A stretch of 36,496 bases of DNA from a virus. The notes below the pieces were generated by a model. The model did no database searches, was not told where the DNA came from, and saw nothing but the letters and a program-made list of their open reading frames with translations. The translations under genes were made by a program, and so were the position numbers. Positions 17,575-36,496 of the stretch are shown one piece after another (within the stretch, counting starts at the first letter, position 1; each line of letters begins with the position of its first letter). The stretch is from the IMG/VR virus record IMGVR_UViG_3300010399_000028, positions 1 through 36,496 of that record. The stretch is one strand, 5' to 3'.

Positions 17575-17646
17575 TTACAATATTTGTATTTCACGTGGTG
17601 TCTTTATAAAATACAATGCCACTATTTTCACAGGTAGTAACTTCAT
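17575..17646 (-). pseudogene. Possible remnant with lipase-like 33-bp segment
   Basis: Bases 17580-17612 match 19034-19066 in the lipase gene at 31 of 33 positions. In the lipase frame this encodes a 23-residue peptide starting MKLLPVKIVALYF and ending in TPREIQIL, against KPREIQI in the lipase. There is no good ribosome binding site. Other frames here (for example 17591-17692, 33 codons) are equally short. I read it as a duplicated fragment rather than a gene. Confidence 0.35.
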
Positions 17647-17676
17647 CTTTTAAACCATTCATTAATCCATTTTCAA

Positions 17677-18159
17677 TTAAGTAAATAAGCATTGTTTTCT
17701 TCGTTTTTGTTCGCATTTACAAGAGCAAGATTTTGTGTATTTACTTCTAGCATCGAATAATTTTCCACAAACACATTTTATTATTCTTTTTTTCCTATTT
17801 CCTTTATTCCATACTTTTCTTCCATTTTCTTTGAAACTATGTAAATGATTATAAGAATCAGTACACCACTCTAAATTAGATAATTTATTATCAGTTCTTA
17901 TTCCATTTTTATGATTTACGCTTCTACGCTGGCTCGGATTAGAAACAAAAGTAATCATCAATAATCTATGTATAGTAAAAACTTTATGTTTTTTATTCTT
18001 ATACAATGTAATTGTCATATATCCATTAGTGGATAATCTTGGTTTTAGAATTTTATATTTATAAAATCTACCATCTTCTCTAAAACGTGAGATCGACTTG
18101 ATTTCCCCTTTTTTGTTTATAAGATAAATTCCAGAATATCCATCTATATTTTTCCACAT
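17677..18159 (-). CDS. NUMOD4/HNH homing endonuclease
   Basis: 160 residues. The N-terminus WKNIDGYSGIYLINKKGEI is a NUMOD4 DNA-recognition motif. The middle is an HNH core (HRLLMITFV at 64-72, NHKNGIRTDN at 82-91, NLEWCT at 95-100, NHLHS). The C-terminus adds a Cys cluster (CVCGKLF ... CSCKC) that could bind zinc. Such enzymes nick or cut DNA at a specific site and spread themselves. It sits 2-3 bases after a small gene fragment (18162-18234) that it appears to interrupt. Confidence 0.85.
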   Translation of the reverse strand: MWKNIDGYSGIYLINKKGEIKSISRFREDGRFYKYKILKPRLSTNGYMTITLYKNKKHKVFTIHRLLMITFVSNPSQRRSVNHKNGIRTDNKLSNLEWCTDSYNHLHSFKENGRKVWNKGNRKKRIIKCVCGKLFDARSKYTKSCSCKCEQKRRKQCLFT

Positions 18160-18161
18160 AT

Positions 18162-18234
18162 TTATAACTTAACACCAAGAGATTTTAGTTTTTTTTGATA
18201 TCTCAAGAGAGCAAGTTTGATCTTCAATATTCAT
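18162..18234 (-). pseudogene. Interrupted small phage gene (CSLEISKK family)
   Basis: A strong ribosome binding site (AAGGAGATAGA) precedes ATG at 18234. The frame reads MNIEDQTCSLEISKK and then leaves its expected course at a run of eight A bases. One base fewer would continue KLKSLGVKL, a motif known from small phage proteins with a C-(S)LE(I/L)(A/S)KKLKELGV opening. The rest of such a protein is missing and the HNH gene begins at once. This suggests disruption by HNH insertion plus a frameshift. Confidence 0.55.
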
Positions 18235-18272: not shown

Positions 18273-18488
18273 CTAAAACCAATGGAAACCATGAGCCATT
18301 AATCCAAATAGACCCCCGAAACCACCTAACATAATTAAAACAAGCCATCTGAAATCTGTTTTCATTTCTCTAAAACCATCTATCATTCTTTTTTCCATTC
18401 CCTCAAGAGTAGTTTCAACACGAGTCATTCTTTGTTCATATAACAAATCATATTTTGTGATTATCATTTGTTCTTCTTTAGTTGTCAT
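18273..18488 (-). CDS. Coiled-coil/transmembrane mini-protein
   Basis: 71 residues: a charged coiled-coil-like stretch (RMTRVETTLEGMEKRM), then DFRW and a hydrophobic Gly-rich membrane segment (about 49-68). The layout is the same as at 2304-2513, with a W just before the membrane. The start overlaps the end of the upstream 51-residue gene by 11 bases, so translation is coupled. It is likely an inner-membrane protein; holin or lysis-accessory roles are possible but unproven. Confidence 0.65.
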   Translation of the reverse strand: MTTKEEQMIITKYDLLYEQRMTRVETTLEGMEKRMIDGFREMKTDFRWLVLIMLGGFGGLFGLMAHGFHWF

Positions 18489-18633
18489 TTTTAATATCTC
18501 GTTTTTTATGTGAATTAAATTTATTGTAAATTAGTATAGCCATTCTCACGCAAAAAGATGTCAGGACAGATATGACAATTGCAACAGCCGCCAATAAAAC
18601 AAAAGTAATAACAGGATATAGACCTTCGGTCAT
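18478..18633 (-). CDS. 51-residue single-membrane-pass protein
   Basis: Starts MTEGLYPVITFVLLAAVAIV. A hydrophobic segment spans ~7-26, followed by a second weaker one and a basic Lys/Arg/Asp-rich tail. AAGAGGATAAAAAA precedes ATG. It overlaps the upstream 37-residue gene by 4 bases (ATGA) and the downstream one by 11 bases. The tight overlap and size resemble phage lysis cassettes such as holin/antiholin pairs, which is inference. Confidence 0.6.
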   Translation of the reverse strand: MTEGLYPVITFVLLAAVAIVISVLTSFCVRMAILIYNKFNSHKKRDIKNDN

Positions 18634-18743
18634 TTTTTTATCCTCTTTTTAAGGCAGCAATTTATCTCATAAATAACCGTAACAATAACAGTAATAATCA
18701 CAACAGGCCAAAAAAAGGATATCGCCGTAATAAGAGCAATCAT
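18630..18743 (-). CDS. 37-residue membrane protein after lipase
   Basis: Encodes MIALITAISFFWPVVIITVI followed by VTVIYEINCCLKKRIKK: one long membrane helix with a basic, Cys-containing tail. It starts 3 bases after the lipase stop and overlaps the next gene by 4 bases. A positive tail suggests N-out/C-in insertion. No family is recognised. Its coupling to the lipase gene suggests a shared job at the membrane. Confidence 0.55.
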   Translation of the reverse strand: MIALITAISFFWPVVIITVIVTVIYEINCCLKKRIKK

Positions 18744-18746
18744 AAA

Positions 18747-20159
18747 TTATCTGCCTAATTTTAATTGTGATGGAGCAGGAAGCAAACTAGCATTTTCTGT
18801 ATGAGATGAATTATAAAACATAAGACTAGAGTTATTACCTTTCCAATAGTTCGTATTGCTTTTCGGAAAATAAGAAGGACACTCGCTTACAACTTCCTTT
18901 GCCTGATTAGATATTAACTTGATCGTGCTATCTAGAGCATAATCTATTAAAGAACTACCATAATCTGCTAAACCTGACATTGTATTGCTTAGCCAAGAAA
19001 ACATTATATTTGGTTGAATACTATCAGCACTCGATATTTGTATTTCACGTGGTTTCTTCATAAAATTATTATCTTCAGATGAAATATAATTATGGTTTTG
19101 ATGTAATTGAGAAAATAAATATTGTTGAAATTGAAGTCTATCATTGTATTTTGTCATAACATTATCAACATTTGATTCCCAACAAATTGCAGAATATTTA
19201 AACCAATAGTCGCTTCTTTTATTAAAGTTTAAATAGGCTTTATAGCCGGCTGCTCCAAAATCACCAAAAGGACTCGAATCTTTTATAATAGTCGTTCCTC
19301 CGCTGGTAATAGAATAATCTATTCTTTCCATGCTATGTTGGTTTTCAATTGAATAAACACTTAGATAATATAAGTTACGATAACAGCTTTGAGGGAGTGT
19401 AGTCGGCGGAGAAGGTGAGCTTTGTGCATCAGTATAATAGTTCATTATACGATAAACATCTCCCCATTGTTCATTCCAGGTATTAATAATATTAACATCT
19501 GCTTGTATATTATTTACCCATTGTTTTAAACCATTTACTATCACATACGCTAGGTCTTCACTTCTACCCAATGATTGTAGATATTTACGAGATATTTCTA
19601 AAGATCCAGGATTATCAAAGGTTATACATTGTACTCTTCCGCCAGGTTTTTCCATTGAGGCAAAGATATTGCTTGCAATAATTGCGCCTAATGAATGTCC
19701 CGTTATGTAGATAGGAACATTTTCAAATGATTGTCCCACTTCCTTGTCATGCCATGTTTTTATTCTCTCTATTTCATCTTTAACATATTGATTAGCCCTT
19801 ATCATTTGCATAGGAATTTTATTAAATGCTACGCCAATATCGGCTATTATATCGTATATATCAGAAGGAACTGTTCCTCTAAATACAATTGCCCATGCTT
19901 TTATCTTTCCGTCTATTAATTGGTATACGAATGATCCCATAAAACCTAAACTATCTTGTCTTGGATCGGAAGTATCAGATTTATAAGTAAACCAATAATG
20001 CCAGTCACTTGGTAACATAGATACATCAGGTGTATAGATAGCTAAAGATATTCTTGATAAATCTTCTGCTATTTGTCTTTCAACAGGTAGTTCTATCTGA
20101 GGCTCGCCTTTAATTGGCGATAGAATACTTTCTTTTAATTTACCTAAAAACTTAACCAT
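18747..20159 (-). CDS. Class 3 lipase-like alpha/beta hydrolase
   Basis: 470 residues. The lipase core is clear: IVFRGT at 91-96 (oxyanion side), GHSLG at 154-158 with nucleophile Ser156, FDNPGS at 181-186, an INTWNEQWGDVYRI segment near 225-238 and QHSMERI with candidate catalytic His275. These match the class 3 lipase fold, which cleaves acyl esters of lipids. No signal peptide is visible, so it may act inside the cell or leave at lysis. The last ~170 residues are unassigned. It heads a run of overlapping membrane mini-genes. Lipases are uncommon in tailed-phage genomes. Confidence 0.82.
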   Translation of the reverse strand: MVKFLGKLKESILSPIKGEPQIELPVERQIAEDLSRISLAIYTPDVSMLPSDWHYWFTYKSDTSDPRQDSLGFMGSFVYQLIDGKIKAWAIVFRGTVPSDIYDIIADIGVAFNKIPMQMIRANQYVKDEIERIKTWHDKEVGQSFENVPIYITGHSLGAIIASNIFASMEKPGGRVQCITFDNPGSLEISRKYLQSLGRSEDLAYVIVNGLKQWVNNIQADVNIINTWNEQWGDVYRIMNYYTDAQSSPSPPTTLPQSCYRNLYYLSVYSIENQHSMERIDYSITSGGTTIIKDSSPFGDFGAAGYKAYLNFNKRSDYWFKYSAICWESNVDNVMTKYNDRLQFQQYLFSQLHQNHNYISSEDNNFMKKPREIQISSADSIQPNIMFSWLSNTMSGLADYGSSLIDYALDSTIKLISNQAKEVVSECPSYFPKSNTNYWKGNNSSLMFYNSSHTENASLLPAPSQLKLGR

Positions 20160-20176: not shown

Positions 20177-20473
20177 TTAATGTAACTTCTGCACTAATTG
20201 AACATTAAGTTCTTTAGTGAAAAGATCTTTTAACTTATCTATATTTATATCTTTTCCTGTCTTCGCCATAGTAAATGATTTTATCCATCTTAAAAGGTTA
20301 GCGTCACAAGTTGCCATCGAACATACAAATAAATTGATTATGATATTGAGAGATATTTCAGGTTGTTCTTTAATCTGTTTAATAAATCTTTTAATTGCAT
20401 AATTAAAGATAGGTTGTGAAATTGAACGGACCATCTGAATCATTTCCTGTTCGGTAAGATCTTTTTCATTCAT
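20177..20473 (-). CDS. 98-residue helical protein
   Basis: Start chosen at the ATG that overlaps the upstream stop (ATGA); the longer frame would need a TTG. It begins MNEKDLTEQEMIQMVRSISQ. A moderately hydrophobic stretch with two Cys (NLFVCSMATCDANLLRW) lies near the middle. No known family. It sits between the Tad2-like gene and the lipase, close enough to be co-transcribed with both. Confidence 0.65.
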   Translation of the reverse strand: MNEKDLTEQEMIQMVRSISQPIFNYAIKRFIKQIKEQPEISLNIIINLFVCSMATCDANLLRWIKSFTMAKTGKDINIDKLKDLFTKELNVQLVQKLH

Positions 20474-20847
20474 GAAAGAGAAATCCAATCTTCGGCAATA
20501 AATGCATCAAAGGGCGGAATAAAAGAATAAGGTTCCATAGAGTTCAGGACAATAGCTTTAGAGTCTTGATCGTAATGAATATATTTCTCCGACCAATCTT
20601 TGAGCCAAGCTTTCTTACCTTTTTGTAAGAAGAGAATAATATCATAAAACTTAAATTCAACTTCTTCACCATCTATAATCCAACCATCTGAGATCATAAT
20701 ATCTTCATTGTAAGCATATATTTCAGCATGTGGTTGATAAGTCTTTACATCATTGCCGTCTATTTTAAAGTAAATAGCGCCAACCCATGATTGACGAGTG
20801 ACTCTATCCCCTTTTTGCAACAATTCCATAGCTTCATTGAATTTCAT
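20470..20847 (-). CDS. Tandem Tad2-like (DUF2829-type) protein
   Basis: 125 residues. The first half opens MKFNEAMELLQKGDRVTRQSW, close to the DUF2829 opening (M-F-EAL--L--G--V-R-GW). The second half repeats a shortened version (FYDIILFLQKGKKAWLKDW) and ends in FIAEDWISL, the usual end of the domain. DUF2829 includes Tad2, which binds the cyclic ADP-ribose-type signal of Thoeris defence. If the relation holds, this would be an anti-defence sponge with two domains in one chain. The similarity is visible; signal binding is inference. Confidence 0.6.
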   Translation of the reverse strand: MKFNEAMELLQKGDRVTRQSWVGAIYFKIDGNDVKTYQPHAEIYAYNEDIMISDGWIIDGEEVEFKFYDIILFLQKGKKAWLKDWSEKYIHYDQDSKAIVLNSMEPYSFIPPFDAFIAEDWISLS

Positions 20848-20859
20848 GTTAGTCCCTAT

Positions 20860-21138
20860 TTACTCAGCAAACATTTCATTGATGATAGTTTCAAATTGTT
20901 CCTTTCGGCGCTTTACTAAATCAAGATCATCTAAGGCTTCAATTAACTCATCAAAAGGTATTGGGTATTTGGAAGCGTACTCTTGAATCTTTTGTTCTTT
21001 CTCAGCAATCATGCTTTCAATCTTACAAATTTCAAGCTCAGCCTTTTTGCGCATCTCTTTAGAACGTAATGGGGCCATGGCTTCGTTAATCTTTTCCTTG
21101 GCTAACACGAGCAACTCTCTGTATTTGATTAATGCCAT
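20860..21138 (-). CDS. 92-residue helical coiled-coil protein
   Basis: Starts MALIKYRELLVLAKEKINEA after AAGGAGATAAACAAC. It is almost entirely charged helix with heptad-like Leu/Ile spacing. There is no cysteine motif apart from a single Cys, and no membrane segment. It lies between the Tad2-like gene and a Gly/Gln-rich gene in the early minus-strand cluster. Function not recognised. Confidence 0.7.
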   Translation of the reverse strand: MALIKYRELLVLAKEKINEAMAPLRSKEMRKKAELEICKIESMIAEKEQKIQEYASKYPIPFDELIEALDDLDLVKRRKEQFETIINEMFAE

Positions 21139-21143
21139 GTTGT

Positions 21144-21419
21144 TTATCTCCTTAGTAGTAAAAGTTTTTTGTTGAGTTTAGGTTTTGATGGCGGGACAGA
21201 GATTCCTATGCCACCATTTGAGACTACTATTGCCCCTGAATCTGGGACGCTGATGGTAACTGCTTGCTGTTGAGCGCCGCTCATTTGGCGAAGCATTTGA
21301 TGGTATTGGTCATTATTCATATTCTGTTGCCCTCTCATAATATGATGACATTGAGCAGAAGAGCACAGGTGGCAATAGCCATGCCCTCCAATTCCAAAGC
21401 CTAATCCCGTTAGTGACAT
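21144..21419 (-). CDS. 91-residue Gly/Gln-rich protein with Cys/His cluster
   Basis: The start at 21419 is preferred because TTTTAGGGAGGTC sits 4-5 bases before tandem ATG codons. The N-terminal part contains GGHGYCHLCSSAQCHH, a Cys/His cluster able to bind metal. A Gln-rich and then a Val/Ser/Gly-rich part follow, with a basic end (KLNKKLLLLRR). No family is known to me. Confidence 0.55.
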   Translation of the reverse strand: MSLTGLGFGIGGHGYCHLCSSAQCHHIMRGQQNMNNDQYHQMLRQMSGAQQQAVTISVPDSGAIVVSNGGIGISVPPSKPKLNKKLLLLRR

Positions 21420-21429
21420 CATGACCTCC

Positions 21430-21639
21430 CTAAAATTCTTTTGGACGTGGGAAGATTTCATTCCCAACCTCTCTGGTTAGCCTACTCGGGTGTAAAGTCC
21501 GGCAATACCGCTCGAGAAATACATCCATACTGTAGACCTCGCCTAACGGCAAAATCAGAGACTCTTCGATCATGCGCCTGAATCGGTTGCCCTTGCGGGT
21601 ACTAGAACGGCCTACATGTCTTTTTGAGCTTCCGTCCAA
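21430..21639 (-). CDS. 69-residue basic protein, start uncertain
   Basis: This frame has a base composition distinctly richer in GC than its neighbours. It reads SSTRKGNRFRRMIEESLILP ... LERYCRTLHPSRL ... FPRPKEF. The first start is a TTG with no good binding site; an ATG at about 21573 (MIEESLIL) is an alternative. A C-terminal helical part may follow a basic DNA- or RNA-binding start. Function unknown. It is likely the first gene of its sub-cluster. Confidence 0.45.
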   Translation of the reverse strand: MDGSSKRHVGRSSTRKGNRFRRMIEESLILPLGEVYSMDVFLERYCRTLHPSRLTREVGNEIFPRPKEF

Positions 21640-21766
21640 ACTTGGTGGCCTATTTTCCCTTCTCTATTTTTATAAGTTCACGTTACGAACATGCCAGGGC
21701 TATCATAAAAATTGAGTAAAGTATCGTCGGCCATAACTCTTTAATGTTGATACCAAGTGTAGATCA

Positions 21767-21877
21767 TTATAAAATTTCATACTTATTGCAATAGACATCT
21801 AATGCCCAGAAAAACAGAAACAGAAATATAATATTAAACATTAGCCCTACCTCTTTACATTTATGGTGGCCTGTCAT
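21767..21877 (-). CDS. 36-residue membrane mini-protein
   Basis: AAAAGGGGAATT precedes ATG. The peptide starts MTGHHKCKEVGLMFN, continues with a hydrophobic helix (IIFLFLFFWALDVY) and ends in NKYEIL. A single membrane pass with His/Cys at the N-terminal side. It lies in a gap of 320 bases between longer genes. Short length keeps confidence modest. Confidence 0.45.
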   Translation of the reverse strand: MTGHHKCKEVGLMFNIIFLFLFFWALDVYCNKYEIL

Positions 21878-21959
21878 AATTCCCCTTTTGAAGCTAAGCC
21901 GATGACTACACTGCCACCATGTTTTGTTATATATACATTTTTATTTATTTTGTAAAGTC

Positions 21960-22412
21960 CTAAAATGGAATATCGGCATTATTGTCAAACTCATCTTTTA
22001 TGGCCTCTGTAAGTTTTGCTGTTGTCCCTTCAGACTTAATATAGTCCTTAACCATATTTTTAGGAGCGTACATCCCACCATTCGGATTAGGTTTACTTTC
22101 TTCTAGACCAAGCTCAAGCTTACCGGCTCTGCCAGGACAATCTGATGCTCTGAGTTCACCGGATTCATACTTTTCAGTCAATCCTGTTGCATCACAAAAG
22201 TGTCTAAGCTTAAAAGCCATGGCTTCGAGGACATAATCAAAGATTAATCGTTCACGTCCCATATTGTCCCAAATCTTCATCTTCAGTTTAATCATCTCAT
22301 TACCGGACTTGGCAACTTGGTCAAGAGCTTCTATAACCTGGAAAGAATATTCTCCAGGTTCAACCAAGGCCATGGTTTGTATTTCTTGTTCTGTTTTAGG
22401 TGTGAATCTCAT
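21960..22412 (-). CDS. DUF669-like protein with SSB-type C-terminal tip
   Basis: 150 residues. The pattern VEPGEYSFQVIEALDQVAKS followed by GNEMIKLKMKIWD is typical of the phage DUF669 group of likely single-strand DNA-binding proteins. A Lys-rich linker ends in the acidic tip DNNADIPF, close to the DDDIPF tip of bacterial SSB, which recruits repair and replication proteins. The start overlaps the upstream ATPase stop by 4 bases (ATGA). It probably coats phage single-stranded DNA and works with that ATPase. Confidence 0.72.
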   Translation of the reverse strand: MRFTPKTEQEIQTMALVEPGEYSFQVIEALDQVAKSGNEMIKLKMKIWDNMGRERLIFDYVLEAMAFKLRHFCDATGLTEKYESGELRASDCPGRAGKLELGLEESKPNPNGGMYAPKNMVKDYIKSEGTTAKLTEAIKDEFDNNADIPF

Positions 22413-23266
22413 TGGTTATCTCCTTGTGGTTTGATTTTGTTTTCCATAAAAGTGATACATTTCTCGATTAGAACTGCAGACATCTCATCAAAAGATATAG
22501 CATTAGCCTTATCTAACCACTTTTGTACTAATTCTTGAGGCTCTTTGAATATCTCAATGAGGTGCTTTAGATGATCTATCTGTTCTTTAGTTGCTAAAAC
22601 TTCAGCGACAGCACTACGTTCTAAGACTTCACGACCATAACGGTTAGCTATCTCATCATAAGAAAAGGGGAACTGTTCACCATCAGGGAAGGATTCTATA
22701 CGGGACTTCTTGATAAGGCCGACTCTTTCTTTGCCACGCTTTTGTATTTCAAAGACCAGATCAAAGAGGTAATCAAGTTTTTTATAGCAATCAAAAGTCT
22801 GTCCCAAGACTGCTAGGTTTTGCCCATATTCATTCCTAGCATGGCTGGTTATGATAACATTCATATCTAGTCTCAATAAAAGACTAAGTAAATGTTTTAT
22901 TTTTTTATTTGCTTCGCTATAATGCCGACCAAATTCAGTGCCATTCTTTATGGCTGACTTATCTAATAGGTCATTGTATAAAGTGGTCAAAGGATCGATG
23001 ATAAGAGTTTTATATTCATGCTTCTCGGTGAGAAGAGTTTTTACTTCATGAACTAACTCATCAAAGTCTGTTGTTTGGAAGACCACACCACCTGAGTTTT
23101 GCAATAACTTTATGTACTGATCATTCTCGGCACCTTTTTCCGTGTCGATCAGATATGGCTTAGGGAAACTTATAGCGGCTGTGGTCTTACCTACCCCAGC
23201 TCCACCATAAAATAATGCCTTAAGCCTTTTTTGTATTGTCTCTGGTTTTACTGCTCGTAATGCCAT
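22409..23266 (-). CDS. RecA-like AAA ATPase (Sak4-type recombination protein)
   Basis: 285 residues. Walker A is GGAGVGKTT at 21-29 and Walker B is TLIIDPLT at 87-94. A polar SITSHAR-type sensor (IITSHARNE) lies at 138-145. Length and layout match the phage AAA_24/Sak4 group, which anneals single-stranded DNA or promotes strand exchange with an SSB partner encoded next door. Here that partner is the overlapping gene downstream. The ATG has AAAAGAGGTGTAAC before it. Confidence 0.8.
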   Translation of the reverse strand: MALRAVKPETIQKRLKALFYGGAGVGKTTAAISFPKPYLIDTEKGAENDQYIKLLQNSGGVVFQTTDFDELVHEVKTLLTEKHEYKTLIIDPLTTLYNDLLDKSAIKNGTEFGRHYSEANKKIKHLLSLLLRLDMNVIITSHARNEYGQNLAVLGQTFDCYKKLDYLFDLVFEIQKRGKERVGLIKKSRIESFPDGEQFPFSYDEIANRYGREVLERSAVAEVLATKEQIDHLKHLIEIFKEPQELVQKWLDKANAISFDEMSAVLIEKCITFMENKIKPQGDNQ

Positions 23267-23286
23267 GTTACACCTCTTTTATTTAG

Positions 23287-23388
23287 TTATAGTTTGCCCG
23301 CAATAATCTGATCAGTTAGTACAATTAAGTTTGCATAAATTAAAGCTGTCACAATAATTATGCCGATTATGTTTTTGATTATGACCAT
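23287..23388 (-). CDS. 33-residue membrane mini-protein
   Basis: GAGGTGGATC precedes ATG. The peptide MVIIKNIIGIIIVTALIYAN is a single membrane helix with a short polar end (TDQIIAGKL). It overlaps the end of the upstream gene by 10 bases. Similar small membrane frames recur in this genome, which raises the chance that it is real. Confidence 0.5.
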   Translation of the reverse strand: MVIIKNIIGIIIVTALIYANLIVLTDQIIAGKL

Positions 23389-23894
23389 GATCCACCTCGC
23401 ACAAAGCCTGTATCTTCTAAAGGGTAAAGGAGATCTCTGTCAGCGTTATATTCATAAACGGCAACTTCTAAGAGCTCCGCCATTTTGCCTTTGACATAAC
23501 TAGTAACACCGTTACACCAGGCATTTACAAACTCAATCTCTTCATCTTTATCGGTAGTATTTTTTAGAAAGCGTAATAAGGCAGGAAGCATGGTTTTCTT
23601 ATAGGCGTCATTATCAGGACCATTGGCTTCATGAGCATAAGCTTCATCCTCAACCATAATGAGACTGGCAAGTTCATGTAGGGTAAAGTCAGATATATCA
23701 TTCAGATGGATAGTGTATTGTTTTATATCTTTGTCGAATTTTGCGTAGTTAGATACAATGTCACTAACAAAATCTTTGATAGGATTGCGGCTCATTTTAG
23801 TCACTCCATTGACTATGGGTAGTAGTGGCACACCTTTCCTTGGTGTTACTTCTTGCTTTACAGTAAAACTTTGATATAGACTCTTCATGTTCAT
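23379..23894 (-). CDS. 171-residue hypothetical early protein
   Basis: Starts MNMKSLYQSFTVKQEV after AAGGAGTCAA (a second ATG three codons in is an alternative). It is mostly helical and acidic, with a central LHELASLIMVEDEAYAHEA segment and a C-terminal GFVRGGSWS. No motif is recognised. Its position just upstream of the Sak4-like and DUF669-like genes suggests a DNA-metabolism role, by neighbourhood only. Confidence 0.7.
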   Translation of the reverse strand: MNMKSLYQSFTVKQEVTPRKGVPLLPIVNGVTKMSRNPIKDFVSDIVSNYAKFDKDIKQYTIHLNDISDFTLHELASLIMVEDEAYAHEANGPDNDAYKKTMLPALLRFLKNTTDKDEEIEFVNAWCNGVTSYVKGKMAELLEVAVYEYNADRDLLYPLEDTGFVRGGSWS

Positions 23895-23925
23895 TTGACT
23901 CCTTAGTCGGGGTTTTTAATGTTCA

Positions 23926-23953
23926 GTGAAGGCGGGTTACAGCCCGCTTTCAC
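23926..23953. terminator. Strong hairpin between RHH gene and 23379-23894 gene
   Basis: GTGAAGGCGGG pairs with CCCGCTTTCAC (11 pairs including one G-T) around TTACAG. On the minus strand it follows the ribbon-helix-helix stop and is followed by TTAAAAA after some bases. It is a partial terminator or processing site that would reduce read-through into the downstream genes. Confidence 0.5.
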
Positions 23954-23965
23954 ACCTTATACATA

Positions 23966-24139
23966 TTAAGTATTTACTTCTGGTACATTAACTTCATACT
24001 TTTTACTACTGATTGACCTTTCTAAAATATCCCTTACTACATCCTGTAAGGTTATATCTTTGTTTACAGATATAATTTTTAATTTCTTCCATACTTCATG
24101 TGGTACTTCTATATTTATGTTCTTAGTATCTTTTGCCAT
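23966..24139 (-). CDS. 57-residue ribbon-helix-helix-like regulator
   Basis: MAKDTKNINIEVPHEVWKKL starts with a likely beta strand (NINIEVP) followed by two helices (EVWKKLKIISVNKD and LQDVVRDILERSI), the CopG/Arc-type plan. AAGGACATAAA precedes the ATG. Such dimers bind short operators in the major groove. Placed among early genes, it may control them. Confidence 0.6.
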   Translation of the reverse strand: MAKDTKNINIEVPHEVWKKLKIISVNKDITLQDVVRDILERSISSKKYEVNVPEVNT

Positions 24140-24203
24140 TTTATGTCCTTAGTTGTTTATCAGTGTTATTTATATAACTTACATAAATAATATAAGTTAT
24201 GAA

Positions 24204-24389
24204 CTATATAACTTTAGTGCCACTGTTTGTCAACTCTTTTTTATCATATTTTTGCTTGGCTAAAAGAAGCGTGGATATAATATAACTATTCATAGAAGTA
24301 TCATTTTCAGCAGCTATCTTTTTTAAGAAAAGCCATAATTCTCGAGACATTCTCATGTTGAAGCACTTCATTTTTATGATATTGCTCAT
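24204..24389 (-). CDS. Arc-like ribbon-helix-helix repressor
   Basis: 61 residues. KCFNMRMSRELWLFLKKIAA followed by ENDTSMNSYIISTLLL parallels P22 Arc (beta strand FNLRWPRE, helix, EN-x-S-NSEI turn, second helix). AAAGGATTG precedes its ATG. Arc represses early promoters by binding as paired dimers. Here it is probably a regulator of the phage early region; the target site is unknown. Confidence 0.72.
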   Translation of the reverse strand: MSNIIKMKCFNMRMSRELWLFLKKIAAENDTSMNSYIISTLLLAKQKYDKKELTNSGTKVI

Positions 24390-24459
24390 TTAACAATCCT
24401 TTAACTTTGGTTTATTGGTATATTGGTGCTATCATATCAAATGTTAATACAAATGTAAA

Positions 24460-24849
24460 TTATTTTTGACGCCACCAAGCTCTCCGTTCTCGACACCATT
24501 TAAAGCCACGTCGCTTCAGATAGGCCTTATAAGCATAATAGTTACCGGTAACCCATATCCTATAATCGGCTGGATTATTTGAGACATATAACCCATAACT
24601 TTTAATCTTCTTAATATCTGCTGGGTCTTTGATTATATGATCTTTTGAATGTTCCGTATGGTCATCGAATAATATGTGATTGGGTGTTTGGGCAAGACAA
24701 TCATAGGCTCTATTTAAAGCTTTTATTCTCTTCAGGCTGATCCTTTTTTGTAAGGCGATCTTTCTATAAGATTCTCTGATAGCTCTTCTTGTTACCACTT
24801 TATTAATCAATTTCATAATGGTCAACGCTTCTCGCACTGTCATTGCCAT
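24460..24849 (-). CDS. J-domain-like/WW-type small protein
   Basis: 129 residues. Residues ~3-55 read as two helices like a DnaJ J-domain (helix, LKRIKALNRAYDCL) but the HPD motif is missing. The C-terminal end WVTGNYYAYKAYLKRRGFKW with RERRAWW is a small domain found in phage and plasmid proteins. It may hold a chaperone-like or nucleic-acid-related role. It is the first gene of the minus early block and diverges from the + strand genes. Confidence 0.6.
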   Translation of the reverse strand: MAMTVREALTIMKLINKVVTRRAIRESYRKIALQKRISLKRIKALNRAYDCLAQTPNHILFDDHTEHSKDHIIKDPADIKKIKSYGLYVSNNPADYRIWVTGNYYAYKAYLKRRGFKWCRERRAWWRQK

Positions 24850-27299: not shown

Positions 27300-27470
27300 A
27301 TGGTAAGGAGCAAATGTTGTCGATATACCGTATGGATTTATAGAGGAAACAATGGAGAAATGTTTTATGTTTGTGATGGCTGTGAGCAGGCCTGTGATAC
27401 CATTTCATCATTGGATTTAATCACTAAGGAAAGTCAAGATGCCAAAGTTCAGTCAAGAATCATTCTCTAA
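27300..27470 (+). CDS. 56-residue zinc-ribbon-like protein
   Basis: MVRSKCCRYTVWIYRGNNGE continues MFYVCDGCEQACDTISSLDL. The CC and CDGCxxAC groups fit a small zinc ribbon. CACGGAGTTTGAG precedes the ATG. It overlaps the endolysin start by 32 bases. It lies just after a strong terminator, so it is likely the first gene of a lysis transcript. Function unknown. Confidence 0.6.
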   Translation: MVRSKCCRYTVWIYRGNNGEMFYVCDGCEQACDTISSLDLITKESQDAKVQSRIIL

Positions 27471-27849
27471 ACTTTCAACTTGTCATATGGAACTTCAAAC
27501 TCTTTTCTATGAGGTAGTCCGGAATTTTGATTGCCAAGTGCTGGAAGGTTTTAGGAATGAAGTGAATCAAAATGAAGCTTTTGAGAAAGGAAATACGCAA
27601 TTAAAATGGCCCAATGGCAAACACAATTCTTCTCCAAGCATGGCAGTTGATGTGGCTCCCTATCCCATCGATTGGCAAAATGTGAAACGGTTTTATTGGT
27701 TTGGCGGCTATGTTTTGGGGATTGCCCAACGCCTGAAAGATGAAGGAAAGATGACTTATTCAGTCCGCTTCGGTGGCAACTGGGATAAACATAACTATAT
27801 TTCTGACGAGAATTTCATTGATTTAATCCATTATGAGCTTATTGCATAA
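27439..27849 (+). CDS. Endolysin, M15-type peptidase
   Basis: 136 residues. The metal and catalytic pattern of the M15 family is present: GKHNSSPSMAVDVAPYP (60-76, zinc ligands His62 and Asp71 by analogy), RFGGNWDKHN (110-119) and IDLIHYEL (127-134, third ligand His131). Such phage enzymes cut the L-Ala-D-Glu or related peptide bonds of peptidoglycan. No signal peptide, so it needs a holin. It has a good ribosome binding site (AAGGAAAGTCAAG) and is followed by the holin candidate. Confidence 0.85.
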   Translation: MPKFSQESFSKLSTCHMELQTLFYEVVRNFDCQVLEGFRNEVNQNEAFEKGNTQLKWPNGKHNSSPSMAVDVAPYPIDWQNVKRFYWFGGYVLGIAQRLKDEGKMTYSVRFGGNWDKHNYISDENFIDLIHYELIA

Positions 27850-27913
27850 TACCATTTTGAATTGAGGTAATGTGGTACACTTTGAATTAGTGTAGGTTAA
27901 AAGGAGTCAGCCT

Positions 27914-28135
27914 ATGAAATTTCTACAAGACCTCATCAAAAATAATCCTTTTACAGCATTACTTTTACCAACTGCTTTGAGCGGTGCTTCCTTTATTGGC
28001 CATCTTATTGTAGCCCTGAGCGGCGATCAGATTGATTGGAAAGAACTACACGATCTCATGTCTTCAGCAAATGGATTGGAGACCTTGCTGCTTATGATAA
28101 TTATGGTGGCTTTGAAAAAACCTAAAAAGAAATGA
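27914..28135 (+). CDS. Holin candidate
   Basis: 73 residues with a hydrophobic segment (PFTALLLPTALSGASFIG to HLIVALSG, ~12-37), a short acidic turn and a second one (LETLLLMIIMVAL, ~55-67), then a basic KKPKKK tail. AAAAGGAGTCAGCCT precedes ATG. Holins form membrane holes and release the endolysin; the arrangement endolysin-holin with a positively charged tail fits. It ends 3 bases before a convergent gene. Confidence 0.7.
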   Translation: MKFLQDLIKNNPFTALLLPTALSGASFIGHLIVALSGDQIDWKELHDLMSSANGLETLLLMIIMVALKKPKKK

Positions 28136-28509: not shown

Positions 28510-28767
28510 CTATTTGAAGAAGTGTTGAATAAATCCAAAAGCTATAAACATACTTAATATGACCTTATAGGTTCTTAATTCCATTTCTTTCAAGATTATT
28601 TTTAATTCTGATATCTCATTTTTAGTCGCTAACGATTTAATATCGACCATCTGTACAAAAGCTTTAGCAGTAGCTTTAGTGATACCTTCGGCTTGTTCTT
28701 GTGTTAATCCTGATTTTTTTAATTCTTCCATATATTCTAAAGTGTCAAAGTTTATTTGTGTGTTCAT
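28510..28767 (-). CDS. DUF1640-like coiled-coil membrane protein
   Basis: 85 residues. The pattern LEYMEELKKSGLTQEQAEGI (a residue-initial L-x3-G-(F/L)-x2-EQAE motif), then SLATKNEISELKIILKEMEL and a C-terminal membrane helix (YKVILSMFIAFGFIQHF), matches the DUF1640/CCDC90-like family of bacteria and phages. These proteins form coiled-coil trimers or tetramers anchored by one helix. Function is not known. A second copy lies just upstream at 28780. Confidence 0.72.
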   Translation of the reverse strand: MNTQINFDTLEYMEELKKSGLTQEQAEGITKATAKAFVQMVDIKSLATKNEISELKIILKEMELRTYKVILSMFIAFGFIQHFFK

Positions 28768-28779
28768 TTTGATTACTCT

Positions 28780-29043
28780 TTAATTATGAAATTTCAAGAT
28801 AAAACTTAATGCCGTTACTATACAGCCACTACAAAATATAATTACACCGGATAGTTTTATAATTAAATCTTGTTTTAAGATTTGGATATCTCGTCTTAAA
28901 ATGGTTAGATCTTCTTTTGTGGCAAGATCATTTTGAAACATTTCTGCTTGTTGTTGAGCTATTTCAGTCGCTATTTTTGCTTCCATTCCAAGGCTTTTAA
29001 GTTTTTCTGCGTTGGTTAAAGGGTTAAAACGGTAGGTGTTCAT
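28780..29043 (-). CDS. DUF1640-like coiled-coil membrane protein, second copy
   Basis: 87 residues: TNAEKLKSLGMEAKIATEIA then DLATKEDLTILRRDIQILKQ and a hydrophobic C-terminus (SGVIIFCSGCIVTALSFIL). LATKEDL followed by a coiled coil and one membrane helix is the family hallmark. The ATG has AAAGAGGATT before it. Its start is the first in this minus island, behind the palindrome at 29088-29097. It probably forms a complex with its neighbour. Confidence 0.72.
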   Translation of the reverse strand: MNTYRFNPLTNAEKLKSLGMEAKIATEIAQQQAEMFQNDLATKEDLTILRRDIQILKQDLIIKLSGVIIFCSGCIVTALSFILKFHN

Positions 29044-29869: not shown

Positions 29870-29929
29870 GAAAATTCGAGTAAGCATTAAATGGACTTTT
29901 TTATTAACTTTATTAAAAGGATTTTAAAT

Positions 29930-30784
<855 letters not shown>

Positions 30785-35390: not shown

Positions 35391-35633
35391 ATGAAGTTAC
35401 AGGAAGCTTTAAAACAATTAAAACTGGGTGCTCGTTTGTACCGTGATGGCTGGGAATCCAAAGACGGCTACATCGTTTTGATGCCAGGCATGAAACATGT
35501 CTGGAAAATTGTGTTACAACCACAACCCAATGCTGGAAATTATATATTCTCTTATGAAGATTTAACTGCAGAAGATTGGGTGCATTTTGTATCTGAAGAA
35601 CCTGAGCCTTCTGAAGTAAGCGTCGAGTTTTAA
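35391..35633 (+). CDS. Tad2-like (DUF2829-type) protein
   Basis: 80 residues. MKLQEALKQLKLGARLYRDG then W, YIVLMPGM and LTAEDWVHFV reproduce the DUF2829 frame (M-EAL--LK-G--v-R-GW ... DL-AeDW). DUF2829 includes Tad2, which captures signal molecules of Thoeris defence. AAGGAGATGT precedes ATG. A tandem version is encoded at 20470. Sequestration of a signal is inferred from the family only. Confidence 0.68.
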   Translation: MKLQEALKQLKLGARLYRDGWESKDGYIVLMPGMKHVWKIVLQPQPNAGNYIFSYEDLTAEDWVHFVSEEPEPSEVSVEF

Positions 35634-35718: not shown

Positions 35719-36496
35719 ATGGAAACAATCGCCGATCAAATGTCTATGGATGACATTAATGAGCAGAATGAGAAGCTCCAGGCTGAGTTATTAGCAGCTG
35801 GCATTGATGAAAGTGATGTTCTTCAACAGGCTCGCGAAGATCTCGTTCTTTGGGATGGCTATTTCAACGAGAATATCGTCCGCGGCAAAGACGACATGAA
35901 TTTTGTTCTGCGTGATCAATGGTCTGCTGTAGAGCGTTCTGAATTTAATCGCTTGTTTAAGCCTGCAATGCAGTTTAACAAGTTATATGATGTCACTAAG
36001 AAAGTAGTAGGTGAACAAAGAAAAAATAAACCTGACTTAATAGTACGATCACTGACAGGCAAAGCAACCCAAGACCAAATAAACCTACGAGCAGACTTGG
36101 TAAGGACAATTTCTTATCAAAGTCAAAATGATCTAGTATATCAAACGGCATTTAAGCAAGCTCTCATGATGGGTTTCGGTGCTTTCGAGATTACCTTAGA
36201 TTATGAAAGGCCACGATCTTTTAATCAAGTGATTCGTTACGAATTAATCCCTGATGTAACGCGCACATCCTTCGATCCGACCGCAATGAAGCCACACAAA
36301 GGTGATGGCAATTTTTGTTCAAGGCAATATCTCTATACCAAAGAAGAGTTCTATGCGACTTATCCCTGGGTCACAAATCCCGTTAGCTATTCTGATCCAC
36401 GCTCTTTGTTGGATTTCCAGTGGGAGACTCGTGACACTATCGTTGTGTGTAAATACACACGAAAAGAATGGTTCCCCGTTAAAATATACATGCTGA
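35719..36496 (+). CDS. Portal protein, N-terminal part (continues at base 1)
   Basis: Start of the P22-like portal gene. It begins METIADQMSMDDIN at an ATG with a strong upstream purine run (AAGGAAGGGG) and stays open to the window end. Joined at the 36374=1 overlap to the frame ending at 1550, it gives a 734-residue protein, close to the 725 residues of P22 gp1. Portal dodecamers form the DNA channel at one capsid vertex and bind terminase and the tail. It follows a likely hairpin terminator at 35640-35679 and lies downstream of terL, as in P22. Family assignment rests on overall sequence character, length and gene order. Confidence 0.85.
   Translation, partial: METIADQMSMDDINEQNEKLQAELLAAGIDESDVLQQAREDLVLWDGYFNENIVRGKDDMNFVLRDQWSAVERSEFNRLFKPAMQFNKLYDVTKKVVGEQRKNKPDLIVRSLTGKATQDQINLRADLVRTISYQSQNDLVYQTAFKQALMMGFGAFEITLDYERPRSFNQVIRYELIPDVTRTSFDPTAMKPHKGDGNFCSRQYLYTKEEFYATYPWVTNPVSYSDPRSLLDFQWETRDTIVVCKYTRKEWFPVKIYML
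36374..36496. repeat. Terminal direct repeat, right copy (circular junction)
   Basis: Exact copy of bases 1-123. Removing one copy gives a circle of 36373 bp in which the portal gene is whole. Confidence 0.95.

Follow-up and report, generated by a model that had tools for sequence, protein, structure and literature searches.

A rare phage lipase gene linked to two small membrane-peptide genes bears marks of an acquired accessory block

Why does a phage that has its own lysis genes carry a lipase gene followed by a run of very small membrane-protein genes, all on the strand opposite to its late genes? We addressed this question in a 36,496-base DNA, the whole of one virus record, which was analysed at full length and is called the window below. 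Its two ends overlap within the portal gene (ORFs 35719-36495 and 3-1550), and the genome is therefore most likely complete and circularly closing. The plus strand carries terminase, portal, scaffold, P22-like coat, tail genes and fibres, and a minus-strand block running from 24849 down to 17283 contains replication-type genes. The phage looks like a podovirus and lytic; no integrase or lysogeny gene was seen in the window. Relatives are abundant in IMG/VR, where a terminase scan confirmed 137 stretches as related phages; the comparison drew on 50 related records, of which 29 exceed 30 kb and the rest are shorter fragments. Two routes to a host were rejected. When GTDB genomes were scanned for the capsid, two contigs matched, from Sulfuricurvum and Planctomycetota bins; these placements contradict each other and the contigs are probably misbinned. 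The terminase and capsid matches to other phages are too distant (about 40% identity or less).

The initial annotation described a class 3 lipase with an intact GHSLG motif, followed by 37-, 51- and 71-residue membrane proteins in what looked like a single translated unit. ORF lists confirmed the small genes together with their overlaps of 4 and 11 bases. From upstream to downstream on the minus strand, the locus reads as follows.

20177-24849, minus strand: replication and accessory block directly upstream of the lipase (ORF spacing, profile matches)
18747-20159, minus strand: class 3 lipase, 470 aa (Lipase_3 profile, GHSLG with Ser156)
18630-18743, minus strand: 37-aa one-span membrane peptide with a basic C-terminus, second gene of the block (hydropathy 2.5)
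18478-18633, minus strand: 51-aa one-span membrane peptide with a basic C-terminus, third gene of the block (hydropathy)
18273-18488, minus strand: 71-aa likely coiled coil with a weaker C-terminal span, ending MAHGFHWF (hydropathy)

The description of the lipase held. Pfam Lipase_3 (PF01764) matches the protein at 31.4 bits (2e-7) against a cut-off of 22, around an ITGHSLGA motif in which GHSLG occupies residues 154-158 and the nucleophile, Ser156, is intact; by this profile the protein belongs to the lipase class 3 family. A second copy, found on a viral fragment called L001, scores 34 bits. Ser156, Asp221 and His275 are invariant between the two copies, and Asp221 and His275 are proposed as the remaining triad residues. 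Since a structure model built from the two sequences reached a pLDDT of only 30, the fold and the triad rest on the motif and the profile. The window protein differs from the Lipase_3 family in an extra C-terminal part of about 200 residues, which has no family match, and it has neither a hydrophobic N-terminal signal nor a membrane span. A search of solved structures with the lipase returned nothing meaningful.

A scan of viral contigs with a lipase peptide led to L001, a 5.8-kb fragment that contains a lipase gene (cut off at the fragment edge), a 37-aa ORF and a 46-aa ORF, in the order seen in the window. The lipases are 72-74% identical in protein, the 37-aa proteins, at equivalent positions, 86% identical, and the 51-aa protein is 72-81% identical to its 46-aa counterpart (81% over 36 residues). 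In the window, 3 bases separate the lipase gene from the 37-aa ORF, which in turn overlaps the 51-aa gene by 4 bases (ATGA); the small ORFs of L001 keep this overlap. The 51-aa gene has the ribosome-binding site AGAGGAT. Between the window and L001, dN/dS is about 0.19 for the lipase gene, about 0.20 for the 37-aa gene (dN 0.07, dS 0.36) and about 0.15 for the 51-aa gene (dN 0.11, dS 0.74), and the excess of silent change weakens or vanishes in shifted frames. Because silent change exceeds non-silent change in all three frames, chance ORFs are unlikely. The ratios are suggestive of coding selection on the three frames, with the imprecision of two sequences and very short genes.

The 71-aa gene behaved differently. 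It overlaps the 51-aa gene by 11 bases, but beside the L001 lipase a 243-aa gene of a different kind takes its place. Homologues that end in AHGFHW or nearly so occur in L019 (two), L091 and L015, and one that shares the N-terminus in L078, all without a lipase. A four-gene unit is thus ruled out, and the 71-aa gene is, judged by these homologues, a neighbour from a separate, lipase-independent family rather than a fixed part of the block. Consequently, the single tight unit of the initial annotation and the conservation of its small frames stand for the lipase, 37-aa and 51-aa genes, which L001 keeps together, and fall for the 71-aa gene.

The two blocks occupy different sites. In the window, the block has the last tail fibre on one side and the replication block on the other. 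In L001 it comes after the portal gene, with the two transcribed towards each other. Since the same set of three genes is found at a different site in L001, they seem to move as one unit, unless L001 is a chimeric contig. The window has a second variable region next to its own portal gene:

1551-2734, no strand assigned: portal-to-scaffold hotspot with two tRNA-Thr genes and two minus-strand ORFs (gap lengths in relatives)

Among relatives the portal-scaffold gap is between 129 and 1962 bp long, which makes it a true second insertion hotspot; its counterpart in L001 is where the lipase block lies. The two tRNA-Thr genes in it are adjacent (1872-2016; anticodons CGT and TGT), and in L065 a matching pair adjoins a homologue of the ORF at 2007-2246.

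How rare is the lipase? By protein search it was present in one of the 50 related records, that of L001, in addition to the window itself, and the Lipase_3 profile found no divergent substitute in these 50. Scans of viral contigs with different lipase peptides gave only L001, as did scans with the 37-aa and 51-aa peptides. No relatives of the lipase were found in 50,697 phage records or 72,556 plasmids, nor in GTDB genomes by a peptide-pattern scan. Phage-borne lipases outside the lysis genes of mycobacteriophages are little described, and a literature search under the phrase "phage-encoded lipases" found no papers. In G021, a close relative with a 92% identical terminase, the counterpart of the site holds methyltransferase-like, cold-shock-like and other small genes (names given from reading the sequences, not from a family search). 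The lipase thus occurs sporadically, at a site whose content varies while the genomes are otherwise collinear, with 49 of 50 records lacking it and other genes in its place in G021. Its composition is also unlike that of the backbone: GC3 is 0.21-0.22 in both lipases versus 0.33-0.36 in backbone genes. Just downstream of the block, the window keeps two remnants of a 154-aa ORF around an endonuclease gene:

18171-18234, minus strand: remnant, start of the 154-aa ORF (64-nt match to L083:9238-9300)
17677-18159, minus strand: HNH/NUMOD4 homing-type endonuclease (NUMOD4 3e-11, HNH_3 3e-6, PHROG HNH 1.5e-31)
17663-17695, minus strand: remnant, end of the 154-aa ORF (33-nt, 88% match to L083:8851-8883)

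The ORF is whole in G021 (L083:8836-9300), and the endonuclease between its two remnants (17663-18234 in all) is a possible homing insertion. The rarity of the lipase, its replacement in G021, the ORF remnants around the HNH gene and the AT-richness are marks of acquired accessory genes. In a separate observation, a 33-nt direct repeat (94%) occurs at 17580-17612, downstream of the HNH gene, and at 19034-19066, inside the lipase gene, where it falls in a segment that differs from L001; the repeat is absent from the searched loci and viral contigs and is possibly a recombination scar.

Like phage accessory ("moron") genes, the lipase block is sporadic, has a lower GC content, lies between conserved genes and gives way to different cargo in a close relative; it differs from typical morons in being a three-gene unit with two conserved micro-proteins and in occupying two sites. 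Is the lipase then an isolated cargo gene? It is rare cargo, yet it comes with two of the three small frames. Its rarity, its AT-richness and the HNH endonuclease next to it would fit a solitary gene of metabolic or neutral kind, with the small ORFs as unrelated neighbours carried along. But both phages have the 37-aa and 51-aa genes after the lipase, at different sites and under coding constraint, and we regard this explanation as improbable. The block is a real, rare, three-gene form of phage cargo and not a new kind of system.

What might such cargo do during infection? The initial annotation had placed the main lysis genes elsewhere, as was found here, and had offered the block as a possible second system for outer-membrane breakdown, among other roles.

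27439-28135, plus strand: ordinary lysis genes, endolysin and holin candidate (phrog_465; position and hydropathy)

The endolysin matches phrog_465 at 8e-25, and the 73-aa holin candidate, which has no family match, was assigned by position and hydropathy only. A holin/endolysin/spanin cassette would be expected with the late lysis genes and throughout the family; the lipase block is about 7 kb away from the endolysin, is encoded on the opposite strand and is absent in relatives. The absence of the lipase from 49 of the 50 related records rules it out as the general outer-membrane breakdown enzyme of this phage family and, with the opposite strand, makes an outer-membrane breakdown system unlikely. 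The lipase and the one-span peptides would nonetheless make a plausible membrane-attack set: as infection ends, the peptides would form small holin-like channels through which the lipase gains access to the lipids of the inner or outer membrane and dissolves them. No spanin gene is recognisable in the lysis region of the window, and most relatives have a short gap between the endolysin and the terminase small subunit, both of which favour such an aid to lysis or release. Against it stand the same 49 records without the lipase, the window's own endolysin and holin candidate, and the fact that in both phages the block runs against the late genes; we consider it unlikely, though a serious contender. 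The mycobacteriophage protein LysB is a phage alpha/beta hydrolase that acts at the envelope; its gene is one of the late lysis genes, and its target is the mycolyl layer. The window lipase resembles LysB as a phage alpha/beta hydrolase that would act at the envelope, but its strand and context differ and its match to an endolysin family is weak (phrog_102, E 0.037).

The position of the block points to an earlier role. The upstream block contains a Tad2-like gene (6.5e-8), DUF669 (2.6e-5) and an AAA_24 ATPase (1e-21), and is probably transcribed together with the lipase. Promoter-like sites number 45 versus 37.7 (sd 6.0) in shuffles, which is not clearly above expectation, and 17 bases separate the upstream ORF from the start of the lipase. 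Early expression is suggested by this short distance, and early or mid-infection expression by the orientation opposite to the late genes, behind replication and anti-defence genes. Our favoured, still tentative reading is that the three genes form a rare accessory block, gained by horizontal transfer, whose 37-aa and 51-aa membrane peptides tether, activate or pass on the lipase, and that the membrane is modified during infection. Lacking a secretion signal, the lipase would be synthesised in the cytoplasm of the host, and the two peptides would be translated from the lipase message by coupled initiation. The one-span peptides would be lodged in the inner membrane, where they would most likely tether the lipase, activate it or hand it on; held at the membrane, the lipase would cleave acyl-ester lipids of the host. 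Expression would be early or in mid-infection, so that the membrane is probably modified during infection rather than at final lysis. We infer catalysis, membrane tethering, timing and purpose alike, and the interaction of the peptides with the lipase from linkage alone.

An early lipase could also serve superinfection exclusion or counter-defence, the lipase and peptides altering the inner membrane so as to block injection by a competitor or to blunt a membrane-based defence. The block lies among early-strand accessory genes and adjoins the Tad2-like anti-Thoeris gene, and G021 has other accessory genes at the equivalent site, all of which would favour this role. However, none of the four proteins (lipase, 37-aa, 51-aa and 71-aa) matched any PADLOC model, by which a known anti-phage defence system is ruled out, and known exclusion proteins seldom include a lipase. 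We judge such a role unlikely.

The remaining proposal was release from, or action on, a eukaryotic cell. The top curated match of the lipase is NCBIfam Rlip_lipase (NF052630), at 4e-14 over residues 81-242. RLip is a secreted Rickettsia lipase effector without a Sec signal (PMC12507273). The match scores 52 bits against an equivalog cut-off of 440 and does not establish membership. The resemblance is not trivial, since the model matched none of 14 control genomes and, among 592 sampled genomes from two phyla, gave two weaker matches (36 and 30 bits) in very long frames. If the lipase were an effector-type gene acting, like RLip, on a eukaryotic cell that houses the bacterial host, this top match, the Sec signal missing in both proteins and the low GC of the block would be accounted for. 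But the match is far below the cut-off and covers the lipase domain only, the two genome contigs with related phages lie in bins of unrelated phyla and look misbinned, and no integrase or lysogeny gene was seen. The window lipase differs from RLip in being phage-borne and in coming with two membrane peptides. We hold an effector of this kind to be doubtful. Equally a long shot is a transferable three-gene device for membrane attack or delivery, in which the two micro-proteins would give an RLip-like lipase without a signal its own anchor or passage in the membrane. Phages of an uncultured host that may live inside cells would spread the device, and the lipase would act outside the bacterial cell. 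Should the likeness to RLip stem from ancestry, it would also show that phages carry effector-like lipases.

Modification of membrane lipids during infection remains the favoured role. An aid to lysis and superinfection exclusion follow at a short distance, and an effector directed at eukaryotes is less probable. With its two conserved one-span micro-proteins, the lipase offers a compact and testable setting in which to ask how an enzyme that lacks a signal gets to a membrane.

Elsewhere in the genome, this one small phage has two separate Tad2-like (Thoeris anti-defence) genes (20470-20847 and 35391-35633). A collagen-like repeat protein is encoded between the terminase subunits (29891-30784), with a homologue near the portal in L084, L085 and L078. 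Three more small proteins with coiled-coil and one-span features are found at 28510-29043 and 2304-2513; the one at 28510 resembles CCDC90-like proteins, and both proteins of 28510-29043 match phrog_17872.
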